DNA of 64,000 nucleotides from Sulfolobus sp. A20. GTDB taxonomy: Archaea > Thermoproteota > Thermoprotei_A > Sulfolobales > Sulfolobaceae. The stretch covers positions 2,494,384 to 2,558,383 of the forward strand of contig NZ_CP017006.1 of assembly GCF_001719125.1 (NCBI RefSeq), written 5' to 3'. This document shows positions 24,892 to 50,865 of this stretch, piece by piece (within the stretch, counting starts at the first letter, position 1; every line of letters starts with the position of its first letter). Both the position numbers and the translations under genes were made by a program. Below the pieces are notes generated by a model. The model was given only the letters and a program-made list of their open reading frames with translations. It did no database searches and was not told where the DNA came from.

Positions 24892-25692
24892 GTGTGTGGA
24901 CAACAATTTCATCCACCCCCATAAAATTCAATTTTATTCCAACTTATGCTAATAGATTTCGAGTAAATTGTGTTGTAGATTAGGAAGAATATTTTTAGCC
25001 ATCTCGTTATTGTGTTCCTTGTTGAGTTCCATGTGAAGTGTGAGTCCATGCTTGCTAGCCTATGTTTTAAGCTCCTAAAAACTAGTTCTACTAAGCTTCT
25101 CTTGCCAAAAGTTTCAACCTCGTGTTTTGCATTGAACCAAGAGAATGCCTTGTAGACTGATGCCTTATCGTGTAGGAAGATAACCTTATCCTCCAATTCT
25201 CAAGCTTAATACCATTTAATATCACATAAACGTGGAAACCACTCCTAAGACTAGTCAACATGAAGAACACAACAAGCCCAGACTCGTAATGCCTAACAAC
25301 CCATAAGTAGTAATACTCACCATTAACCCTCAAAACCTTAGTCTCATCAACGAGCAAATAATCCCCACGCTTAACATCAACCTTAACCTCATAATTAACA
25401 TTAGCCAACTTGTGAAAATAGTAGAGCAAGGTAGTGTGAGGTAATAAAGTCCTCCAACTTGACAAGCCTAGCAAGTAAGAGGTTAAGGCTAATGCAATAT
25501 CATCCAAGGAATGAAACCTAGGCTTAACACTTATATACTTTAAAAGGGTAGAGATAATTTGGGTGAGGGCGAGGAAATCAAACCTATTGATATTCTCACC
25601 CCCATAAATAACTCGCCCTCACCCTAAAAACACTTTTCCACAATAAAGAAAATTCAATTTATATCAAAACAACCAAATTGTTGTCCACACAC
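24892..25692 (-). mobile_element. IS6-family-like insertion sequence, 801 bp
   Basis: Terminal inverted repeats GTGTGTGGACAACAATTT are identical for 18 bases at both ends, and an 8-bp target duplication (AAGGAAGG at 24884-24891 and 25693-25700) flanks the element. Size, 8-bp duplication and the single DDE transposase on the minus strand fit the IS6 family. It resembles elements named ISC774/ISC735 in Sulfolobales, although I could not check the name. Related ends occur at 5630, 6086, 45443-45678 and 46496-46724. Confidence 0.85.
24909..25507 (-). pseudogene. IS6-like DDE transposase, frameshifted
   Basis: The N-terminal part (25507 down to about 25200) has the first catalytic Asp in LLVDETKVLRVNGEYYYLWV. 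The C-terminal part (25196 to 24909) has the second in VIFLHDKASVYKAF and the Glu in SLVELVFRSLKHRL. A single missing G near 25196 separates the frames: the fragment at 6300-6345 has AATTGGAGGGATAA where this copy has AATTGGAGGATAA. The reading upstream of 25507 (RFDFLALTQIISTLLKY) has no ATG, so the true start is unclear. The copy should not move by itself unless the frameshift is bypassed. Confidence 0.82.
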
Positions 25693-34722: not shown

Positions 34723-36090
34723 ATGGGAGGAAAGGAAAGTAGAGAGGTAAGTTCCAGGTTCGATGATTATTCCCTAGAAGAGGTACCTAAGCACTCTAGA
34801 TATGGATTTTATAACATGTTCCTAGTGTTCGCTTCTGTTTACGGGGCTATCGCTGTAATATGGGCTGGAGGAGCGTTAGGATATGGTTTAACATTCAGTC
34901 AAGCAATGATGGCAGTATTAGGTGGTACTTTAGTTCTAACCATTTTAGGAGGGCTAGCTGCTGCCATAGGTTCCTATAGTGGACTTTCAACCTATGTATT
35001 ATGGAGATTTCCTCTAGGTAGATGGGGAGGAAAGATTGCCGGATTTTTATTGATAACAGTAACTACTGGAATTGGGTGGTATGCTGTTGAAACGTGGTTA
35101 TTCGGCATAGTTATGAGCGAAATATTTCCTCACAATCCGTTCTTTTCAGTTGGTTTCGCAGCAATTTGGGGAGGCATAATAATGATCATTATGACATATA
35201 TAGGATATAGAATGTTATCGTTCTTAAGCTATTTCACTATTCCCTTCCATATATGGTTAATTGCGATAGGTATTGCTATAGTTATCGCACTAAAAGGTGG
35301 ATTTTCCGCTGTCATGTCTGCTGTACCAACCTCACACATGAGTTTATTAGATGGAATATCAGCCACTGTAGGATTATATAGCGCGGGAACTATAATATCT
35401 CCAGACATAGCTAGGTTTGGTAAAACCGCAAAAGATGCTAGTATGGCGTGGGTAGCTCATATTATTTTCCTATATCCGTTCTTGATATTAGGTGGAGTAG
35501 CAATGGTTCTGGTAACTGGTACATATTTAGTTACTAACGCTATGTTGGAGTTAGGTATGGGAGCTGGAGTCTTGCTAATTATAATATTTGGTCAATTCAT
35601 AATAAATACGGATAACTTGTATAGTGGATCATTATCTCTTGTTAACTTATATCCAATGAGAAGAGAGTTAGCATCAGTAATTAATGGCGTAATAGGAACT
35701 GCTGTAGCAGCATACGTAGGATTCACTGCAGGTTCGTCTATAACTCCTTTCGAGAATTTCATAACTATATTAGGAAACATTCTTCCACCTATGGGAGGTA
35801 TAGCTATTGCTGACTTCTTCATCGTAAGAAGGTACTTAAAAGGAGTTAAAGACCCACATGAGAGGTATAAGTTTAAGCCTGGGAACGCTTACTATAATCT
35901 TAATATTGCTGGTATAGTAGCATTAGGATTAGGTGCACTAGTAGGATTTTTAGTTCCCTATGGTATAGCTGCAATAAACGCGTTAATAACTGGTTTCCTA
36001 GCATATATTTTAATATACTACGTTTTTAAGTCACTAGGAAAAAGTCCAGAGATCTTACCATACACTTATCAAGGTGGTAGATTATCATGA
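34723..36090 (+). CDS. NCS1-family nucleobase/hydantoin permease
   Basis: 455 residues with 12 membrane helices. SRYGFYNMFLVFASVYGAIAV at the start, the GTLVLTILGGLAAAIGSYSGLS stretch, and ISPDIARFGKTAKDAS (about 226-241) are typical of the NCS1 cytosine/allantoin/hydantoin symporters (CodB, Mhp1). It brings in the cyclic substrate using an ion gradient. First gene of an operon: the next gene overlaps by 4 bases. An AAAATTTATTATT box about 28 bases before the ATG implies a leaderless mRNA. Confidence 0.87.
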   Translation: MGGKESREVSSRFDDYSLEEVPKHSRYGFYNMFLVFASVYGAIAVIWAGGALGYGLTFSQAMMAVLGGTLVLTILGGLAAAIGSYSGLSTYVLWRFPLGRWGGKIAGFLLITVTTGIGWYAVETWLFGIVMSEIFPHNPFFSVGFAAIWGGIIMIIMTYIGYRMLSFLSYFTIPFHIWLIAIGIAIVIALKGGFSAVMSAVPTSHMSLLDGISATVGLYSAGTIISPDIARFGKTAKDASMAWVAHIIFLYPFLILGGVAMVLVTGTYLVTNAMLELGMGAGVLLIIIFGQFIINTDNLYSGSLSLVNLYPMRRELASVINGVIGTAVAAYVGFTAGSSITPFENFITILGNILPPMGGIAIADFFIVRRYLKGVKDPHERYKFKPGNAYYNLNIAGIVALGLGALVGFLVPYGIAAINALITGFLAYILIYYVFKSLGKSPEILPYTYQGGRLS

Positions 36091-36476: not shown

Positions 36477-36480
36477 CTTG

Positions 36481-37557
36481 ATGGAAACATACTATGTAAG
36501 AGCTTCGGACGTAAATAATTTAGTGACTGGCGCTGCTTTCTTAGGTACTGGCGGGGGAGGAGATCCTTATATAGGGGGTTTAATGCTTAAGAAAGCCATA
36601 GAGAGAAGGGGACCAGTAGAAGTGATAAGAAGTATCAAAGGTAGTAACGCCCATATAGTAGGAAGTGCAATGATGGGTGCTCCAATAGTTATGATCGAGA
36701 AGGTACCAAGTGGAGATGAGGCTCATAAAGCACTTAAAATGTACTCAGAACTTACCGGTAGAAAAGTTGAATACATTACTCCTCTGGAAATAGGTGGAGT
36801 GAATTCAACTATCCCTCTTATAGTTGCTTCAACTTTAGGTTTACCAGTGTTGGATGGAGATGGAATGGGAAGAGCGTTTCCAGAACTCCAGATGACTACG
36901 TTTTATTTTTACGGAGTAGATCCATCACCGGTAGTAGTTCTGGATGAAAGGGGAAACGTTTCAGTAGTTGAAGGAATAGACGGTGTATGGGCTGAAAAGA
37001 TAGCCAGAGTGATAACTCTGAGATATGGTGGGGCAGCATACATATCCCTTTATGGAACCACATTAGACATGTATAATAAAACAGCAGTCTTAAATACCTT
37101 ATCATTAGCGCTAAATATAGGGGAATTGTTAAATCAGTCTAAGTTTAATGAAGTATTAGATTACTTAAAGGCTAGAATATTATTTAAGGGAAAAGTCGTT
37201 GACGTTATTAGAAGAATAGAGAAAGGATTTTCGAGAGGTTTTGTCATAATAGAAGGAATGGAGGAGTACTCTAATAGATCCTTAAAAATAGATTTTCAAA
37301 ATGAGTTCTTAGTTGCAACTCTTAAAAACAATGTGTTAGTTACAGTTCCAGATCTAATAACAGTCTTAGATGTGTTCACCTTTAAGCCAATAACAACTGA
37401 TAGGATCAAATACGGTCAAAAGGTCTTAGTTGTGGGAATCCCGGCTCACGAAAGGCTAAGAACAAAAGAGGCATTAAAATATATAGGACCGAGAGCTTTT
37501 GGATATAGTATAGATTATAATCCAATAGAGAAGAGGGAGGAATTAACATGGCTATAA
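36481..37557 (+). CDS. DUF917 protein, hydantoinase-associated
   Basis: About 358 residues of the DUF917 family: FLGTGGGGDPYIGG near the N-terminus (about 19-32), EIGGVNSTIPLIVASTLGLPVLDGDGMGRAFPELQMTTF in the middle and GIPAHERLRT near the C-terminus. The family is found beside HyuA/HyuB and NCS1 permeases in many prokaryotes, and its biochemical role is not established to my knowledge. The ATG at 36481 (just after a TTG) is chosen. Its end overlaps the next gene by about 10 bases. Confidence 0.85.
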   Translation: METYYVRASDVNNLVTGAAFLGTGGGGDPYIGGLMLKKAIERRGPVEVIRSIKGSNAHIVGSAMMGAPIVMIEKVPSGDEAHKALKMYSELTGRKVEYITPLEIGGVNSTIPLIVASTLGLPVLDGDGMGRAFPELQMTTFYFYGVDPSPVVVLDERGNVSVVEGIDGVWAEKIARVITLRYGGAAYISLYGTTLDMYNKTAVLNTLSLALNIGELLNQSKFNEVLDYLKARILFKGKVVDVIRRIEKGFSRGFVIIEGMEEYSNRSLKIDFQNEFLVATLKNNVLVTVPDLITVLDVFTFKPITTDRIKYGQKVLVVGIPAHERLRTKEALKYIGPRAFGYSIDYNPIEKREELTWL

Positions 37558-39092
37558 AAATTGGTGTAGATATAGGTAGTACGCACACTGATGCAGTAGC
37601 ACTAGAAGGAAGAAATTTAATATATGCGACAAAAGTAGAAACCACACCAGATCTCACAGAGGGATTGCTTAACGCCATAACTGAGGTTATAAATAACCTT
37701 GGAGAGAAGAAAAATGAGATTAAAGCTTTAATGATAGGAACTACTCACGGATTAAATGCAATACATCAAGCTAAAAGACTAAATAGAGTAGCTGTTATAA
37801 GGATAGGTTTACCTGCTGGAGAGGGCGTACCACCTCTTACGGAATGGCCAGAAAGGCTTAGATCCTTCGTTACTAGCGTATATTCAGTAAGGGGAGGGCA
37901 TGAATATACTGGAGAAGAGATAGTGCCTCTCGACGAAAGCAAAATATATCAAATAGCTAGTGAAATAAATGGGAAAGTTGATAGCGTAGCAATAACGTCA
38001 ATATTTTCCATCGTTAATCCAGAGCATGAGAATAGAGTTAAGGATATTTTAATAAAGGAAGGAATAAGCGTACCAATAACGTTATCACATCAAATAGGAG
38101 GCATAGGCCTTATAGAAAGAGAAAACGCTACAATACTTAACTCATTGATCCTAAACATTTTCGATAATTTAATACAAATTTTACAATCCCTTCTGCACAA
38201 ACTCGGTTTAGAAAATGTAGAGCTTTATTTTGCTCAAAACGATGGTACTATCGCTTCTGCTCAATTCATTAGAAAATTTCCAATATTTACAGTAGCGGGA
38301 CCAGTTTCAAATAGCATAAGAGGAGCTCATTTGCTAACGGGAATAACAGACGCTATTGTTATGGATGTTGGAGGAACAACAACTAATGTTGGAGTTCTCT
38401 ATAAGGGATATCCAAGGGAATCAGCTAGTCCAGTTGAGATAGCTGGTATAAGGACGAATTTTAGGATGCCAGACATATTCACTTTAGCACTAGGTGGAGG
38501 AACAGTCATAAAAGGAGAAGAAATAGGGCCAGAAAGCGTGGGTTTCATGCTTACTAAAAGAGGATTATCTTGGGGAGGGGATACGTTAACCGCTACTGAC
38601 GTTTCGATGGTAGTTAAGGGAATCAAAATTGAAGGATCTAATCCAGAACTTATAAGGGATAGATACCAAATAGAGTACCTTAAGAAAATCTATAGTAAGA
38701 TGTTAGAATCTTGGGAGAACGCCATTGACATGATGAAAACTTCTAAGGAGGACGTAATAGTAATAGGAGTAGGAGGAGGGAGCATTATGTTACCTGAAAC
38801 TTTGAAAGGTTCTTCCAAACTGGTAATTCCTAAAAATGCTCAATACGCTAATGCTATTGGGTGTACCCTTACTAAAGTCGGAGCTACGATAGAGAGAACC
38901 TTCTCGTATGATCAGACCAGTAGAGATACTGCAATTAAATCATTAATAGAAGAAGCTAAGAAGACCGCGATATCTGCTGGAGCTATCGATACAACAATAG
39001 AAGTTAGGGAAATTGAGGAGTTGCAAATGCCGTATTTACCGGGTAATGCAATAAAGGTAAGTGTGAAAGTCGTAGGAGAATTAAAGATTTGA
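37548..39092 (+). CDS. HyuA-like (short) hydantoinase/oxoprolinase
   Basis: 514 residues. The ASKHA phosphate loop IKIGVDIGSTHTDAVALEG is at 3-21, then LMIGTTHGLNAIHQAKRLNR, VAGPVSNSIRGAHLLTG, AIVMDVGGTTTNVGVLYKG and GVGGGSIMLPETLKG. It is shorter than full HyuA (about 680) and lacks the C-terminal acetone-carboxylase-like portion, as is usual for the DUF917-linked subgroup. It has no HyuB partner in its operon, and DUF917 may play that part. It is convergent with the second DUF917 gene, overlapping it by 12 bases. Confidence 0.85.
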   Translation: MAIKIGVDIGSTHTDAVALEGRNLIYATKVETTPDLTEGLLNAITEVINNLGEKKNEIKALMIGTTHGLNAIHQAKRLNRVAVIRIGLPAGEGVPPLTEWPERLRSFVTSVYSVRGGHEYTGEEIVPLDESKIYQIASEINGKVDSVAITSIFSIVNPEHENRVKDILIKEGISVPITLSHQIGGIGLIERENATILNSLILNIFDNLIQILQSLLHKLGLENVELYFAQNDGTIASAQFIRKFPIFTVAGPVSNSIRGAHLLTGITDAIVMDVGGTTTNVGVLYKGYPRESASPVEIAGIRTNFRMPDIFTLALGGGTVIKGEEIGPESVGFMLTKRGLSWGGDTLTATDVSMVVKGIKIEGSNPELIRDRYQIEYLKKIYSKMLESWENAIDMMKTSKEDVIVIGVGGGSIMLPETLKGSSKLVIPKNAQYANAIGCTLTKVGATIERTFSYDQTSRDTAIKSLIEEAKKTAISAGAIDTTIEVREIEELQMPYLPGNAIKVSVKVVGELKI

Positions 39093-40124
39093 CAATTTTT
39101 TATATTCGTTTAATATACTTTTTGAAATTACCTCTTCACCACCTACCTCTCTCCATTTTGATGAAACTGGAATTCCGATAACTCTAACCCTAATACCATA
39201 TTTAATCATATCTGATGTAATTATCTTATTTTTGTAATCCACTAGATTTATTATATTTGGTGCAATTGAAATAATGTTATTATTGACTTCAAACAATAAG
39301 TATTCATTCTTAACATATAACTTAGCCATATAGTCTTTATACTCCTCTAAACCTTCAATCGTTACTATAGCTGAGTTGAAACCTGGTAGATTAATTCTTC
39401 TCACATCGACAACTTTCCCGTGAAAGAGTATTCTACCTTTGACGAAATCTAACATGGAATCCAATCCTTCTGTATTCAATATTTTGCCAATATCTATGCT
39501 CAACGAAATACTTCCTAATATTGCACTCTTAATATAACTCTCTCCGTTCATAGGATAAATTGCAATATAACCTCTTCCTCCAAACCTAACAGTTATGCTT
39601 CTAGCGATTTTTTCAGCATAATAGTTATCAACTGAGTCCAAAATTACTTGATTACCCCTCTCATCAACTATACACATTGGCGTGGCATTGATACCGTAAA
39701 AGTGCGAAGTAGTCATGTAAAGTTCCGGAAAAGCTCTTCCCTCTAAATCTCCATCAACTAAAGGCTTATTGGCTAATAATGAAGCTATAAAAGGTACTAC
39801 AGAGTTTATACCACCTATCTCTATTGATGTAATCTTGGACGCTTCCCTTTTGAGAAATTTAGATAAACACTCGTAAGCTTTAAAATATTCTGTCCCAGCT
39901 GGTATTTTTTCTATACCTACCCATGGAGATCCCATACCTCCTACTCCAATAATGAAATCGTTGTCAGCTATTCCCTGTTCATAATATAGCTCGTGTCTAT
40001 TGAGTTCTTTCATTTTTGTCTTTAATATTTCATATCCCAGAAACGGATTACCTCCTCCTCCAGAACCTAAAACTGAACTACCAATTGCTAAATAATATAT
40101 ATCTCTTTCAGAAACCTTATACAT
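39081..40124 (-). CDS. DUF917 protein, second copy
   Basis: About 347 residues, paralogous to 36481-37557: SVLGSGGGGNPFLGYE, EIGGINSVVPFIASLLANKPLVDGDLEGRAFPELYMTTSHFYGI and IGIPVSSKWR. It is on the opposite strand, so the DUF917-HyuA-DUF917 set is expressed from two promoters. A TTG at 40136 is also in frame, but the TATA (CTTTTTAAATAAG, about 40152-40165) would start RNA near 40132, so the ATG at 40124 is preferred. The arrangement raises the possibility of a two-DUF917 (hetero-oligomeric) complex. Confidence 0.83.
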   Translation of the reverse strand: MYKVSERDIYYLAIGSSVLGSGGGGNPFLGYEILKTKMKELNRHELYYEQGIADNDFIIGVGGMGSPWVGIEKIPAGTEYFKAYECLSKFLKREASKITSIEIGGINSVVPFIASLLANKPLVDGDLEGRAFPELYMTTSHFYGINATPMCIVDERGNQVILDSVDNYYAEKIARSITVRFGGRGYIAIYPMNGESYIKSAILGSISLSIDIGKILNTEGLDSMLDFVKGRILFHGKVVDVRRINLPGFNSAIVTIEGLEEYKDYMAKLYVKNEYLLFEVNNNIISIAPNIINLVDYKNKIITSDMIKYGIRVRVIGIPVSSKWREVGGEEVISKSILNEYKKLSNL

Positions 40125-40136
40125 CTTCTTAACCAA

Positions 40137-43043: not shown

Positions 43044-43631
43044 TTAGTGCAATACCATTGTCTTATAAGGATCTATTTGAGAGAACCCCAATTTGCTGAG
43101 TTCTTCATTTACACTTTTAATGAATTCATTGACAGAAATATCAACAATGTTTAACTGTTCTAAGTATAACTTGCTTCCTATAACGTTATTTAACTGATTG
43201 ATCATCTCAACAGCCCTAGGGAACCAAAAGTTAAGTGCACCTTGCATTCTCTTCTTCTCTTCGTAACTTCTTAAAACATTATAAGAGAAGTGTAAGTGAT
43301 ATTCCTCTTCCTTGGCTAAACTGGATGCAAGGTTAGCTAAGGGCTCATAAATTATATCTTTAATAGCCCTAAGCTGATATAACCCAGCTCTATCTATCAG
43401 ATATACGTAAGAGATTACGTCTTCCCAGTTAAATAACGGTAAATTAGATACTTCCAGCAGATGTAATCCTAGCCTAGCGTTCTGTATTTTTTCTGTATTA
43501 ACGTTAAAGTTCTCTAATAACCTTATTAGTTGCCATCCGTGGTTTAGCTCATCTGAGACTATCTTTGCCATAAATAATCTTCCATCCACGTTAGGAGCGT
43601 TAACGAGCCAAGGTGAATATTGCTCAACCAT
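43044..43631 (-). CDS. Ferritin-like di-iron oxygenase subunit (PaaA/PaaC type)
   Basis: Similar to PaaA/PaaC and to the divergent neighbour at 43830. DELNHGW (E28xxH31) and KEEEYHLHFSYN give two of the di-iron EXXH motifs; PWLVNAPN is conserved in the family. From ATG 43631 the protein is 195 residues and would lack the first iron-binding Glu. In the same frame the DNA stays open for another 40 codons upstream (to 43751) and encodes REIPDELKNIIKNIIETRAD, then FELAMVEQ, with the expected Glu. No ATG, GTG or TTG exists in that stretch, so the true start is either non-canonical (ATT 43730 or ATA 43724 after a GGTGAG site) or a base has been lost near the start. Confidence 0.75.
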   Translation of the reverse strand: MVEQYSPWLVNAPNVDGRLFMAKIVSDELNHGWQLIRLLENFNVNTEKIQNARLGLHLLEVSNLPLFNWEDVISYVYLIDRAGLYQLRAIKDIIYEPLANLASSLAKEEEYHLHFSYNVLRSYEEKKRMQGALNFWFPRAVEMINQLNNVIGSKLYLEQLNIVDISVNEFIKSVNEELSKLGFSQIDPYKTMVLH

Positions 43632-43739
43632 AGCTAGTTCGAAGTCAGCTCTCGTTTCGATTATATTCTTAATAATATTCTTTAGTTCATCTGGTATTTC
43701 TCTGAGATCATTTGTCCTCTTTATGATAATCTCACCATA

Positions 43740-43829
43740 TATATCTAATTTTTAGAAACTTTTATCTTTTTCGCTTTTTACTTCTTACGTACAGAAAACG
43801 TTATATACTTTAAACGCAAATCATATTTT
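43740..43829. promoter_or_regulatory. Divergent promoter of the oxygenase pair
   Basis: Plus strand: GTTATATACTTT at about 43799-43810 places the start at the GTG 43830 (leaderless). Minus strand: GATATATATGG and AAAGATAAAAG boxes at about 43735-43762. Both oxygenase genes therefore fire from this 90-base stretch. Confidence 0.5.
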
Positions 43830-44597
43830 GTGGTAGTCCCAGAATACACCAAACCAAAAAGGGTAATTGGATGGGGAGAGTATAAAGGTTTGAGGAAGTT
43901 TGAGTCAACATACGATATTCCTCAGGAGGCTGTAAACGTACTAATGAGACTTTTATCCGTTCAAGGAGATACAGAGTTTGCCTCAATAGAACAGCACTTA
44001 CCTTGGTTAATTCATGCTCCTAAACTCTCTGATAGAGTTACGATCTCTAGGATAATGGTAGATGAGATGAGACATGGTTGGCAGGTAATCCAAGTACTGA
44101 AGGAATTCGGAGAGGAAGGAAAGAAAATAGCTGAAGAATTGTTATGGACTAGAATGGGCAAACATAGACTAGACGCATTCAATATACCATTTAATATGTG
44201 GGAAGATACTCTAGCATTCACCTTTCTAATAGATAGAGTTGGTATGTTCCAATTATTAGCCTTCCAAGACTGTAGCTTTGGTCCATTATCTAGGATAATA
44301 CCTACAATGCTAATGGAGGAGGAGTTTCACGTAAACTTTGGATATAATGGGATAAGGGAACTAGTAAAGGAGGGTAAAAAGGACTTGGCTCAAGCATTAA
44401 TAAATAAGTGGTTCCCTAGAGGTCTAGATATGTTTGGGCATTCAAAATCATATACGATAGATTTGGCTTACAAATACGGTTTAAAGAGGTATAAGAATGA
44501 TGAGTTAAGGGAGATGTATATAAAAGACGTAAAAGAGTTGATAGAACCTTTAGGTTTACAGTTACCAGATATTTATAAGAATAGAAGGATATTATAA
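43830..44597 (+). CDS. Ferritin-like di-iron oxygenase subunit (PaaA/BoxB-like)
   Basis: 255 residues. The di-iron ligand set is complete: Glu49 in DTEFASIEQ, E79xxH82 in VDEMRHGW, an acidic residue around MWED (125-126), and E164xxH167 in EEEFHVNFGY. The fold and motifs match the PaaA/PaaC subunits of phenylacetyl-CoA epoxidase and the BoxB epoxidase. It would use O2 to epoxidise an aryl-CoA. No PaaB, PaaD or PaaE reductase gene lies nearby, so the electron donor must be elsewhere. GTG start, leaderless. Next gene follows after 11 bases with an AGGTGAG site. Confidence 0.8.
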   Translation: MVVPEYTKPKRVIGWGEYKGLRKFESTYDIPQEAVNVLMRLLSVQGDTEFASIEQHLPWLIHAPKLSDRVTISRIMVDEMRHGWQVIQVLKEFGEEGKKIAEELLWTRMGKHRLDAFNIPFNMWEDTLAFTFLIDRVGMFQLLAFQDCSFGPLSRIIPTMLMEEEFHVNFGYNGIRELVKEGKKDLAQALINKWFPRGLDMFGHSKSYTIDLAYKYGLKRYKNDELREMYIKDVKELIEPLGLQLPDIYKNRRIL

Positions 44598-44608
44598 GGT
44601 GAGATGTA

Positions 44609-45412
44609 ATGGGTTTAAAAGAGTTAAGCCCTAAATATTTCAAAATAGAAGTAGAGGATAATGTCGGAATAATTAAGTTGAATAGACCTCCAGCTAATGC
44701 TCACAATCTAGAGATGTTAAGAGAATTAGACAACATCATAGTAGAGGCTAGATTCGACGATAGTGTTAAGGCATTATTGGTTACCAGTAATGTACCAAGA
44801 TTTTTCTCAGCCGGATTTGATATAAACGAGATTAAGGAAAAACCCCCAGAATATATAGGATTATCAAGTCAGTTCAGCAAAGAGGTAATGTTAAGGATGA
44901 TGTCTACTAAGAAGCTGATAATAGCTAGCATAAATGGTCATTGCATGGGTGGTGGGTTAGAGTTAGCTTTGGCATGTGATTTGAGGTTTGGTGCTAATAG
45001 TGAAGAAATAAAGATAGGTATGCCAGAAGTTGCTAATCTAGCTTTAATACCTGGAGAAGGAGGAACTCAGTTTCTAGCCAGAATTGTAGGTAGATCAAAG
45101 GCTATTTATTTAATGACTACTGGTAAAACATTAACACCTAAAGAGGCTTATGAGTTAGGACTCCTTGACAGATTAGTAGAGCCTGAGAAATTATTTGAAG
45201 AATCGTTTAATTTTGCTAGACAAGTTGCTAAGGGACCAGCATTAGCTGTAGGATTTGCTAAATTGGCTGTAAATGAGGGAATGGACTTACCTTTGTATAG
45301 TGCGTTTGCATTAGAAAGGGAGATGCAGAACCAAGCTTTAGCTTCTGAAGACGCTAAAGAAGGTGCTAAAGCGTTCTTCGAAAAGAGAAAACCAATCTTT
45401 AAAGGAAAGTGA
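44609..45412 (+). CDS. Enoyl-CoA hydratase/isomerase
   Basis: 267-residue crotonase-fold enzyme. Oxyanion-hole motifs: SNVPRFFSAGFDINEI (about 63-78) and INGHCMGGGLELALACDLRF (about 109-128); catalytic-region text EEIKIGMPEVANLALIPGEGG. It hydrates or isomerises enoyl-CoA, or, in the PaaG/BoxC/DmdD branches, opens or rearranges the epoxide product. An operon partner of the oxygenase at 43830 with 11 bases between and an AGGTGAG ribosome site before the ATG. This supports an aryl-CoA epoxide route. Confidence 0.88.
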   Translation: MGLKELSPKYFKIEVEDNVGIIKLNRPPANAHNLEMLRELDNIIVEARFDDSVKALLVTSNVPRFFSAGFDINEIKEKPPEYIGLSSQFSKEVMLRMMSTKKLIIASINGHCMGGGLELALACDLRFGANSEEIKIGMPEVANLALIPGEGGTQFLARIVGRSKAIYLMTTGKTLTPKEAYELGLLDRLVEPEKLFEESFNFARQVAKGPALAVGFAKLAVNEGMDLPLYSAFALEREMQNQALASEDAKEGAKAFFEKRKPIFKGK

Positions 45413-45442: not shown

Positions 45443-45678
45443 GTGTGTGGAAAACAATTTCATTTACTTCCACATTCCAACTTATGCTAATAGATTTAGA
45501 GTATATTTGGTGTAAGAGGTCAAGGCTAATACAATCTCGTCCAAGGAATGAAAGTAAGCTTAAAAGGTAGAGATAGTCTAGGAAATCAAGCCTATTCTCG
45601 CCCTAATAAATAACCCTAAAAATACTTTTCCACAATAAAGAAAATTCAATTTATATCAACAAATTGTTGTCCACACAC
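45443..45678. mobile_element. Non-autonomous IS6-like derivative (MITE-like, 236 bp)
   Basis: Starts GTGTGTGGAAAACAATTTC and ends AATTGTTGTCCACACAC, the ends of the IS at 24892-25692, with the middle of the transposase deleted. Remaining bits such as CAAGGAATGAAA and GAGAATAGG blocks match the IS. Left flank GCGCTA and right flank GTGCTA may be a worn target duplication. It sits just after the enoyl-CoA hydratase stop and supplies DNA up to the promoter of the PaREP1 gene. Confidence 0.8.
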
Positions 45679-45723
45679 GTGCTAAGCAGAATAAGTATAT
45701 ATATCTTGCTTTCCCTTACTATC

Positions 45724-46251
45724 ATGATGGAGAAGGATTTAACAAGAGTTGATGAAAGCTACATTAAGGCTAGAGTCTTGGAGGTCATAGTTGACTTAAT
45801 ACTTTCTATTGAGTTGTGGAATAGGGGACTAACTAGAAACTCTGCTGGTAAGGCATTTAATGCTGTCAAAGCTTTAATAAGTGCACTTGTACTCATCAAT
45901 ATGCAAAAGCTTATAGAAACTGTAAAAGACGAGAAGGAGAGAAAATGGTTATCAAAAAAAGGTTACTCTGCACCTACACACTCAATTTACGGACTTTCCT
46001 TACAGTTAAAGAGTATAGGTATTGACGTAAGCGACTTGATAAACCGTGCCTTGAATTTACATGATTACCAATATAATGGTTTTGACCCAGATTTTTCTAG
46101 GTATAGAAATAAAGCTGAGGTTAAGTATGACTTAGAATACGTCATTGACACGGTAATTAACATACTCCCTAAACTCTTCAAGGATTTCTGGGGGAAAGAA
46201 ACGGAAGATTTATATAAAACGCTTGTCAAGGAAAGGGAGACTAAAGTTTAA
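45724..46251 (+). CDS. PaREP1-family (HEPN-like) protein
   Basis: About 175 residues. LEVIVDLILSIELWNRGLTRN, SAGKAFNAVKALISAL, KGYSAPTHSIYGLSLQL and LNLHDYQYNGFDPDFSRYRN are typical of the archaeal PaREP1/PaREP8 family, whose helical fold is HEPN-related. The family is multicopy in thermophilic archaea and its function is not established; nuclease or minimal toxin roles have been suggested for HEPN proteins. ATG 45724 (or 45727) is chosen because AGTATATATATC lies 26 bases upstream, and a longer TTG reading would begin inside the IS derivative. The gene is bracketed by two inverted IS derivatives, possibly forming a composite unit. Confidence 0.75.
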   Translation: MMEKDLTRVDESYIKARVLEVIVDLILSIELWNRGLTRNSAGKAFNAVKALISALVLINMQKLIETVKDEKERKWLSKKGYSAPTHSIYGLSLQLKSIGIDVSDLINRALNLHDYQYNGFDPDFSRYRNKAEVKYDLEYVIDTVINILPKLFKDFWGKETEDLYKTLVKERETKV

Positions 46252-46254
46252 GAT

Positions 46255-46385
46255 GCAATAATAAAATTGAAAACGTAAGGGACGTTGTAACTGGGAAACC
46301 CTCCAATTACATATCACAAAGCCACGTATTTGAAGAACTGGTGTACGAAGACCCCTTTCTAACTAACGTTATAATTGACTTTTGA
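46255..46385 (+). other. Possible gene fragment after PaREP1
   Basis: An open frame without a start codon reads IENVRDVVTGKPSNYI, then SQSHVFEELVYEDP and FLTNVIIDF before a stop. The composition looks protein-like, but no family is recognised and no ATG, GTG or TTG precedes it. It could be the tail of a gene lost by rearrangement between the two IS derivatives. Confidence 0.3.
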
Positions 46386-46495
46386 TAGGGTAATCCTTAT
46401 GTCATACGTCAATAAAAATAAACTTTCATGACGAGCTACAGGTATAACTTGAAGCGGTTACGAGAACGATATTGCGATAATTCTCTGACTAGTAA

Positions 46496-46724
46496 ATATG
46501 TGGACAATAATTTGGTTGATATAAATTGAATTTTCTTTATTGTGGAAAAGTATTTTGCATGAGGCAACTCATCTATTAGGGCGAGAATGGGTTTGATTTC
46601 CTAACACTTAACTCAACAAGAAACACAATAACAAGATGGCTAAAAATATTCTTCAACACAATTTACTCGAAATCTATTGGCATAAGTTAGAATGTGGAAG
46701 TAAATGAAATTGTTGTCCACACAT
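46496..46724. mobile_element. Non-autonomous IS6-like derivative (MITE-like, 229 bp)
   Basis: Left end ATATGTGGACAATAATTTGG (outermost four bases worn), right end AATTGTTGTCCACACAT. It is inverted relative to the copy at 45443-45678 and has a different internal deletion, keeping more of the transposase 3' side (for example GAAACACAATAACAAGATGG). It flanks the PaREP1 gene on its right. Confidence 0.78.
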
Positions 46725-49895: not shown

Positions 49896-50865
49896 ATGGT
49901 AAGATTAATAAGCCATCAAGAGCTAAATGGGTTAGTAAAGGAGATACTTGATAAGAGGGGAGTTAATGGAAGTGAGATCATTTCAAATCATTTCGTTGAA
50001 GCAGAGTTAAGAGGTCATTCATCTCACGGCGTTCAGAGAGTAATTCCCTTAGTTAAAGGTGTTGAGTTAGGAACAATAAGGAAGGAGTTAAAGTATGAGA
50101 TAGTAAAGGAAAACAATAACTCAATACTCATAGATGGGTTGCATAGCATAGGAATAACGTTATGGGATAGGTTGGTAGAGGAATACGTAGAAAAAAAAGA
50201 ACTTTATAGCGGTCAGAAACTCATCCCACATAGGTTTTCTAGGATATTATACGGAAAAAGTAGCAAGAAAAGGGAAAGTGGGGATAATGATAGGCAATGC
50301 TGAACCTGCCGTAGTAAAACCTATGAGTTCACAAAAAGTGTTATCAACAACTCCAATTAGCATTTCTATTCCTACAAGGGATAATCCTATAATCTTAGAC
50401 ATGTCTCTAGCCTCAATTGCTAGAGGAAAGATAATAGAAGCTCTAAGGAAAGGAGAGGAGATACCGTATGGAGTTGCTGTAGACAAGGAAGGCAAAATCA
50501 CTACTAGCCCTAAAGAGGCTTTGGAAGGAGGAATTTTACCAATGGGAGGACAGAAAGGATTTTACTTAATGCTTACATTAGAACTATTAGTATCGTTTTT
50601 AACAGGCTCTGCCATAGGTCCTAATGTCAAGGGAGTACTAAATACTGAAACACCACCAAACAAGGGTGAAATAATGATCATAATAGATCCTATAGATGCT
50701 AATTATGACGCAATAGATTACATGAAGAACATCTTAAGGTCTGATTTCCCAGGTGAACATGGGATGAAATTAAGAGAAAAAGCTATGAGAGAAGGTATAG
50801 AGATTGATGAAAAGTTATACGAAACGTTAGTTGATATGAGGTATAAAGTACCTTATTTCACATAA
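49896..50865 (+). pseudogene. Ldh2-type malate/lactate/sulfolactate dehydrogenase, frameshifted
   Basis: First part (49896 to about 50190): MVRLISHQELNGLVKEILDK, then AELRGHSSHGVQRVIP, the hallmark start of the NAD(P)-dependent Ldh2/MdhII/ComC family. After a run of eight A at 50191-50198 the correct text continues one base out: KNFIAVRNSSHIGFLGYYTE, then KVGIMIGNAE and on to RYKVPYFT at 50865. Removing one A restores a single frame of about 322 codons, somewhat shorter than the usual 340-360. The family reduces or oxidises 2-hydroxy acids, including ureidoglycolate and sulfolactate. It is 590 bases upstream of a split UxaA-type dehydratase, which suggests a shared pathway. A leaderless start fits AATTTATTTAAAA 26 bases before the ATG. 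Confidence 0.88.

Follow-up and report, generated by a model that had tools for sequence, protein, structure and literature searches.

What is a pair of PF05138 (PaaA_PaaC) proteins doing in Sulfolobus sp. A20, and is it what is left of a phenylacetyl-coenzyme A (CoA) epoxidase or something else? The question is raised by a 64,000-nucleotide stretch of DNA (the window in what follows; positions 2494384-2558383 of a one-contig genome of 2.69 Mb), in which the two proteins, here called SuA and SuC, are encoded together with a PaaX-family repressor, a benzoate-CoA ligase family enzyme and a crotonase-fold protein. Our answer, which we hold to be reasonably probable on the strength of the sequences, is that these five genes would form a self-contained aerobic CoA-thioester route for benzoate or a close relative, built around a BoxB-like and probably heteromeric epoxidase.

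A first-pass annotation of the same letters had already seen a PaaX regulator, a benzoate-CoA-ligase-like enzyme, two ferritin-fold proteins and an enoyl-CoA hydratase standing together, and this is borne out by Pfam and TIGR scores and by the fact that all five genes are present in 10 of 11 Sulfolobaceae loci (10 genomes, one with two loci; the genome G131 carries two full cassette copies). Its proposal of an aerobic aryl-CoA route also holds up well, given a benzoate-type ligase and pocket, PF05138 proteins with six ligand positions, a crotonase and PaaX. Could the genes be chance or mis-called open reading frames? We reject this, since the PF05138 matches in the whole 2.69 Mb genome are two, exactly SuA and SuC, both above the Pfam cut-off of 28.5 bits, and since the five genes recur as described.

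Family placement of SuA and SuC

The label PaaA/PaaC-like, given to the two proteins in the first-pass annotation, is correct at the level of the Pfam family but goes no further, because both score far below the equivalog thresholds of PaaA, PaaC and BoxB and the trees group them with neither PaaA nor PaaC. Against the PaaA equivalog TIGR02156 (cut-off 280 bits) SuA scores 99.4 and SuC 41.6 bits, and against the PaaC equivalog TIGR02158 (cut-off 133.35 bits) SuC scores 37.3 and SuA 39.3. Our careful tree has 59 rows; a second careful tree drops five long or odd rows and uses another alignment, and a quick tree drops four such rows. They took 8 of the 11 SuA and 8 of the 10 SuC copies, near copies being omitted together with a degenerate partner at one locus (L016, described below). 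In the 59-row tree one split (98/90) separates all PaaA and PaaC from SuA, SuC, BoxB and the stand-alone Chloroflexota and Binatia proteins, and it returns at 100/98 when the long rows are removed and the alignment is changed; moreover, SuA, SuC, BoxB and most of the stand-alone proteins form a group at 99/96 in the 59-row tree. The approximately unbiased (AU) test rejects a grouping of SuC with PaaC (p = 1.2e-4 in the second careful tree, 0.019 in the quick tree), of SuA with all PaaA (p = 8.8e-5) and of SuA with six core PaaA rows (p = 9.1e-5). As far as these trees can speak, then, SuA and SuC belong on the BoxB side of PF05138, beside the stand-alone Chloroflexota and Binatia homologues, in a picture where BoxB is represented by two sequences only, the root is unknown, the branching around BoxB is weak and SuC is a long branch about which the tree program gave a warning. 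A sister relationship of SuA and SuC is not rejected by the AU test (p = 0.38), with support of 68 in the quick tree; the grouping is absent from both careful trees.

The residues are in keeping with di-iron proteins. The SuA ligands E49, E79, H82, D135, E164 and H167 are invariant in all 11 copies, and fold searches rank both SuA and SuC next to 4MUD, PaaA, BoxB and PaaC. The first of these is in fact the solved structure of a SuC: 4MUD is SSO1313 of Saccharolobus solfataricus, from a genome of the same genus as that of the window, and is 60-61% identical to our SuC in fold alignments and 100% identical to one cassette copy (L021). It is a structural-genomics entry, titled phenylacetic-acid-degradation-like and with no function assigned in the title. 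The AlphaFold model of SuC is good (mean predicted local distance difference test score, pLDDT, 90.6), while that of SuA is weak (mean pLDDT 70.2; root-mean-square deviation of about 16 to 4MUD), and for SuA the family ranking alone was used. An R2-like (ribonucleotide-reductase-like) oxidase or demethoxyubiquinone hydroxylase, either of which the first-pass annotation had named as the placement that would overturn its proposal, was not seen: PF05138 is the sole Pfam family at E 0.001 for both proteins, and R2-like oxidases appear in the fold search at an E of about 0.02 only, behind 4MUD, PaaA, BoxB and PaaC. VIA-align places many ferritin-fold families at Z 16-19, again behind those four, and the absence of a family from that search proves nothing.

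Substrate, subunits and electron supply

Which acid might be activated? The pocket of the window ligase reads A229, Y230, A300, G325, H331 and I332, at positions that we take to correspond to A227, Y228, A302, G327, H333 and I334 of the Rhodopseudomonas palustris benzoate-CoA ligase. The same letters, AYAGHI, are found in 11 of 11 Sulfolobaceae ligases, as they are in the ligase beside boxCBA of Mycetohabitans, a bona fide boxABC cluster. The crotonase has both glutamates of the catalytic pair, located by their positions in rat enoyl-CoA hydratase; all 11 Sulfolobaceae copies share them, as do BoxC and PaaF, whereas PaaG lacks them (threonine and phenylalanine in the Escherichia coli protein). 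Against the PaaG equivalog TIGR02280 the window crotonase scores 134.8 bits, below the cut-off of 345.15. It shares 51.5% identity with a haloarchaeal crotonase whose gene is clustered with those for a PF05138 oxygenase and a benzoate-CoA ligase family enzyme. Ligase family, pocket letters and glutamate pair together point to benzoate or a near relative as the predicted substrate, and to chemistry that is box-like rather than paa-like.

The most durable of the competing ideas, and one to which we give a limited but real share of belief, keeps this chemistry and changes the acid: anthranilate, a hydroxybenzoate or a ring acid of the cell's own making, so that the cassette would serve a special aromatic or a biosynthetic step. 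The nearest solved chain to the ligase is indeed the anthranilate-CoA ligase 4wv3 (434 bits, as against 401 for 2v7b), followed by the benzoate-CoA ligases 2v7b, 4rlf and 4eat, and the patchy distribution of the cassette would fit a niche substrate. The pocket, however, is that of benzoate-CoA ligases, and in the printed alignment the AY shared by the window and the benzoate ligases is replaced by TF in 4wv3. One specific biosynthetic role, in making caldariellaquinone, was considered and rejected, because a cassette carried by 7 of 147 genomes in the order is too patchy for the principal quinone of Sulfolobales.

Do SuA and SuC work together? A shade less probable than a different acid is the proposal that each is a homomeric oxygenase of its own, serving a different substrate or step, for which one might cite that SuC is present four times in the 4MUD crystal, that 8 of 10 SuC copies keep the six ligands (E, E, H, D, E, H) in place, and that most loci of the Chloroflexota and Binatia homologues have no partner gene next door. 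Against this, SuC lies beside SuA in 10 of 11 loci, with a degenerate partner in the eleventh, and in the SuC of two loci (L017 and L018) lysine replaces the helix-1 glutamate and aspartate a later glutamate, substitutions that fit a non-catalytic partner. Canonical PaaC rows have lost several of the ligands, and the PaaC of haloarchaea and Thermus carries the same helix-1 lysine.

The first-pass annotation had also pictured a reduced oxygenase that draws electrons from an outside donor, with PaaB, PaaD and PaaE gone. The absences are real within the scope of our searches, since none of the 10 carrier genomes reaches the cut-off for PaaB (PF06243), PaaD (TIGR02159), PaaE (TIGR02160), BoxA (TIGR03224), a fused PaaZ or a NuoF-like protein (PF01512). 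The searches for PaaB, PaaD, PaaZ and PF01512 recover real members in controls; those for PaaE and BoxA are weaker negatives, none of 14 controls passing the PaaE cut-off and no control genome that of BoxA. Generic PaaD-like proteins occur below cut-off elsewhere in all 10 genomes. With no PaaE, BoxA or NuoF-like gene found, the electrons would have to come from a donor encoded elsewhere, so that this part of the earlier picture survives, whereas the reduced PaaA/PaaC complex does not, in view of the BoxB-side placement and the AU tests. It looks as though BoxB-side proteins normally do without PaaB-PaaE and are usually served by a separate ferredoxin-type donor, judging from the neighbourhoods in Chloroflexota and Binatia/Deltaproteobacteria: in the latter the oxygenase is followed by a gene for a [2Fe-2S] thioredoxin-like ferredoxin in six of six loci, and also by a NuoF-like gene in five, the sixth contig ending before that point. 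No donor gene stands beside the Sulfolobaceae cassette, and a housekeeping ferredoxin is our guess. Later steps of the pathway could be carried out by separate aldehyde dehydrogenases and MaoC-type hydratases, which are plentiful in all 10 carrier genomes.

We therefore think the cassette is probably not a reduced Paa complex, both proteins being of the BoxB side, where PaaB-PaaE are not used. A true PaaA/PaaC phenylacetyl-CoA epoxidase that has shed PaaB, PaaD and PaaE is improbable in our estimation. It would share the Pfam family and the presence of PaaX, and one locus (L016) has PaaK-like, PaaH-like and thiolase genes as well; but the trees and AU tests separate both subunits from PaaA and PaaC, the ligase belongs to the benzoate family rather than being a PaaK, the crotonase glutamates are missing from PaaG, and the 10 genomes have no fused PaaZ above cut-off. 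Least probable of all is a stress or detoxification function instead of growth on aromatics, which has behind it a 3.3-fold rise of SSO2017 and SSO2018 after hydroxyurea in S. solfataricus and a fall of SSO1314 (annotated as acetyl-CoA synthetase, and by its numbering probably the ligase beside SSO1313) on nickel challenge, in the parts of those reports available to us, and against it that these are single expression observations and that a set of ligase, oxygenase and crotonase is a catabolic pattern.

The cassette, its surroundings and its relatives

Table 1. Features of the cassette, with positions counted along the window.
Feature	Position	Strand	Basis
PaaX-family repressor, 266 aa	40546-41346	-	PaaX, PaaX_M and PaaX_C all above Pfam cut-off
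Benzoate-CoA ligase family enzyme, 526 aa	41389-42969	-	TIGR02262, 517.6 bits (cut-off 375.25)
SuC, PF05138 protein of the BoxB side, predicted second di-iron subunit (about 227 aa)	43044 to about 43727	-	PF05138, 61.8 bits
Divergent promoter region	43728-43829		Conserved among Saccharolobus-type loci (8 loci aligned)
SuA, PF05138 protein of the BoxB side, likely the catalytic di-iron subunit (255 aa, starting with GTG)	43830-44597	+	PF05138, 104.9 bits
Crotonase-fold hydratase/hydrolase, 267 aa, glutamates E118 and E140	44609-45412	+	ECH_1, 179.7 bits

The extent of SuC needed revision, since the first-pass annotation had taken the ATG-started open reading frame at 43044-43631 for the full minus-strand gene. 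That frame misses about 33 residues, including the helix-1 glutamate that binds iron, and it stays open upstream to about 43730, where the translation matches the N-termini of relatives, the ligand glutamate included. The window carries ATC at 43727-43725, where all aligned relatives carry ATG, in a frame that is otherwise open, and the SuC start codon is therefore unusual or damaged; there is no in-frame ATG, GTG or TTG near 43727. The divergent region holds candidate TATA-like boxes facing both ways (read by eye) and no clear operator near the promoters, the inverted repeats there being short and rich in A+T. The PaaX protein itself scores 219.3 bits against TIGR02277, below the cut-off of 264.55.

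The flanks have some curiosities of their own. About 30 bases past the crotonase stop codon begin three nested inverted repeats (74 nt, 88% complementary; 33 nt, 91%; 45 nt, 98%), inside which lies a PaREP1-family gene at 45664-46251, and the whole of 45444-46723 looks like a small mobile or palindromic element; a piece related to its repeats is found at 25627-25648. At 49896-50865 a gene of the malate/L-lactate dehydrogenase family (Ldh_2) is probably broken: its two pieces are in different reading frames, and between them a portion of the profile is lacking. On the other side of the cassette, at 36478-40136, two S-Me-THD-like genes (PF06032/PF20906, related to thiohydantoin desulfurase) flank a hydantoinase/oxoprolinase-like gene, and a cytosine/purine-type permease gene at 34723-36090 precedes them in what appears to be a catabolic cluster.

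How widespread is the set? Among 147 genomes of the order, 7 have PF05138 proteins. A SuA-like protein is encoded by 10 of 229 genomes in the class and by 5 of 398 sampled across the phylum, and every carrier belongs to the one family and to one of three genera. The loci occur in three different kinds of surroundings, the flanks differing between the window and its relatives. PaaX is present in 10 of 11 loci. The divergent arrangement of the two oxygenase genes described in the first-pass annotation is right for eight loci, the window among them, but in L017 and L018 they share a strand. The exceptional locus is that of Metallosphaera yellowstonensis (L016), where ligase, crotonase and SuA are joined by a strongly degenerate partner of 196 aa and by extra thiolase, PaaH-like and PaaK-like genes (the last at 405 bits, cut-off 646), with no PaaX within the 20 kb examined. 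In one further genome (G146; L019, 10967-12560) the ligase is split into two overlapping open reading frames in different frames, either by a frameshift or through an error in the sequence.

A scan of 84,980 genomes, in which records close to the window may be missing, gave eight loci: Metallosphaera, one Chloroflexota and six Binatia/Deltaproteobacteria. In the high-GC contigs some genes were missed or mis-framed by GC-based gene calls, and tblastn segments were used instead. Strong SuA relatives (E of 1e-55 or better) are found in 3 of 301 Chloroflexota genomes, one of which has PaaX, a crotonase (46%) and a SuA homologue (55% identical) side by side on one contig (L096) and a ligase (41% identical) followed by a second PF05138 oxygenase on another (L099), both contigs ending there. 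The suggestion of a distinct Sulfolobales branch must be qualified accordingly: the group is not purely Sulfolobales. In the two other Chloroflexota genomes (L048, 5372-6736; L097, 8903-10175) the SuA homologue is preceded by a gene for an FlK-like (fluoroacetyl-CoA) thioesterase. Among all these stand-alone PaaA-like proteins of Chloroflexota and Binatia/Deltaproteobacteria are the nearest homologues of SuA (34-55% identity), which differ from the cassette in having no adjacent SuC and in their ferredoxin, NuoF-like or thioesterase neighbours.

Comparison with better-known systems is instructive. With BoxB and its companions BoxA and BoxC the cassette shares the side of the PF05138 tree, the pocket letters of the benzoate-CoA ligase, a two-glutamate crotonase and independence of PaaB, PaaC and PaaD; it differs in a SuA of 255 rather than 475 aa, an added paralogue in SuC, the lack of BoxA, a shorter crotonase and a PaaX regulator. 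With PaaABCDE it has in common the Pfam family, the fold, the six-ligand pattern of PaaA, an asymmetric ferritin-fold pair and PaaX, whereas SuA and SuC lie outside PaaA and PaaC, PaaB, PaaD and PaaE are lacking, the ligase is of another family and the crotonase is unlike PaaG. The Haladaptatus cluster (L083) resembles it in its benzoate-CoA ligase family gene, PF05138 pair and crotonase, yet in the tree its own pair falls in with Thermus PaaA and with PaaC, and the cluster retains genes for a ferredoxin and for PaaB-like and PaaD-like proteins. Such haloarchaeal plasmids (L083, L082 and L060) in fact carry a second Paa-type cluster, with acyl-CoA/benzoate-CoA ligase, PaaA-, PaaD-, PaaB- and PaaC-like, ferredoxin and crotonase genes, in which PaaA groups with that of Thermus and PaaC has lysine for the helix-1 glutamate. 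Plasmids of Alteromonas and Burkholderia (L061 and L084) show another recurrent set, in which the genes after that for a PF05138 protein encode a radical SAM protein and a MaoC or PaaI-type thioesterase.

What the cassette may do and why it matters

If benzoate or a close relative is indeed the substrate of a BoxB-like epoxidase here, the division of labour might run as follows. The ligase, by its family and pocket, would make the aryl-CoA, and SuA, by its family and ligands, would activate O2 and epoxidise the ring of the CoA thioester. SuC, which so strictly accompanies SuA, would be its paralogous partner, with a PaaC-type role reached on a line of descent of its own. It would be the crotonase, equipped like BoxC and PaaF with the two glutamates, that hydrates or opens the epoxide product; electrons would be supplied by a general ferredoxin or reductase encoded elsewhere, and PaaX, as expected of its family, would repress the genes until aryl-CoA appears.

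Several facts do of course weigh against such a scheme. SuA reaches 101.1 bits against the BoxB equivalog TIGR03225, over the core only, where the cut-off is 499.1, and is short (255 aa, compared with 475 for BoxB); the crotonase, at 267 aa, is half as long as BoxC (556 aa), with only 28% identity over 190 residues; and the best solved match of the ligase is the anthranilate enzyme already mentioned. BoxA, PaaE and NuoF do not rise above cut-off in the carrier genomes, and the cassette has no dedicated BoxD. The 4MUD crystal holds SuC with itself, so that its pairing with SuA remains a prediction, carriage is patchy in both order and class, and we found no growth, enzyme or metabolite evidence for the cassette in the literature.

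A table in a 2016 paper, as far as we had access to it, lists SSO2017 and SSO2018 under the names enoyl-CoA hydratase and phenylacetyl-CoA epoxidase, with a possible part in benzoate catabolism (PMC5134839). A 2026 survey of the phenylacetate pathway, in the portion available, has archaeal cases in Halobacteria only, describes for Bacillota and Halobacteria configurations with PaaA and PaaC alone, and is without any word that starts with 'sulfolob' (PMC13186573). Two papers on phenol and S. solfataricus do not discuss the cassette genes in the passages searched. Our literature search returned no paper that describes the cassette or places it with BoxB, none on SSO1313, none on BoxB-type benzoyl-CoA epoxidases in archaea, on PaaX in archaea and Sulfolobus or on the phylogeny of BoxB and PaaA as benzoyl-CoA oxygenases, and, for Sulfolobus together with benzoate-CoA ligase, one unrelated metagenome paper. 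The 4MUD structure and the hint that SSO2018 is linked to benzoate were thus known before; the BoxB-side placement of SuA and SuC and the description of the cassette appear to be new.

A bolder version is attractive, and we offer it tentatively as the less probable elaboration: that this is a third kind of aryl-CoA epoxidase, in which a duplication on the BoxB side gave a two-subunit complex whose PaaC-like partner evolved independently of Paa. Saccharolobus would then combine two complete kinds of di-iron site in one complex, in the Sulfolobus-type genomes the partner would have lost its site by a change of glutamate to lysine, as in haloarchaeal and Thermus PaaC, and thermoacidophilic archaea would use benzoate aerobically with only a housekeeping ferredoxin as donor.

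One lesson is a correction of names, in that archaeal PF05138 pairs are not all phenylacetate enzymes. Should the scheme be true, aerobic ring opening of CoA thioesters would exist, with very few parts, in the genetically tractable Sulfolobaceae, and an asymmetric oxygenase pair would have arisen at least twice within PF05138. The cassette would also furnish a small, heat-stable epoxidase with which to study how electrons are fed to a BoxB-type di-iron site without a dedicated reductase.

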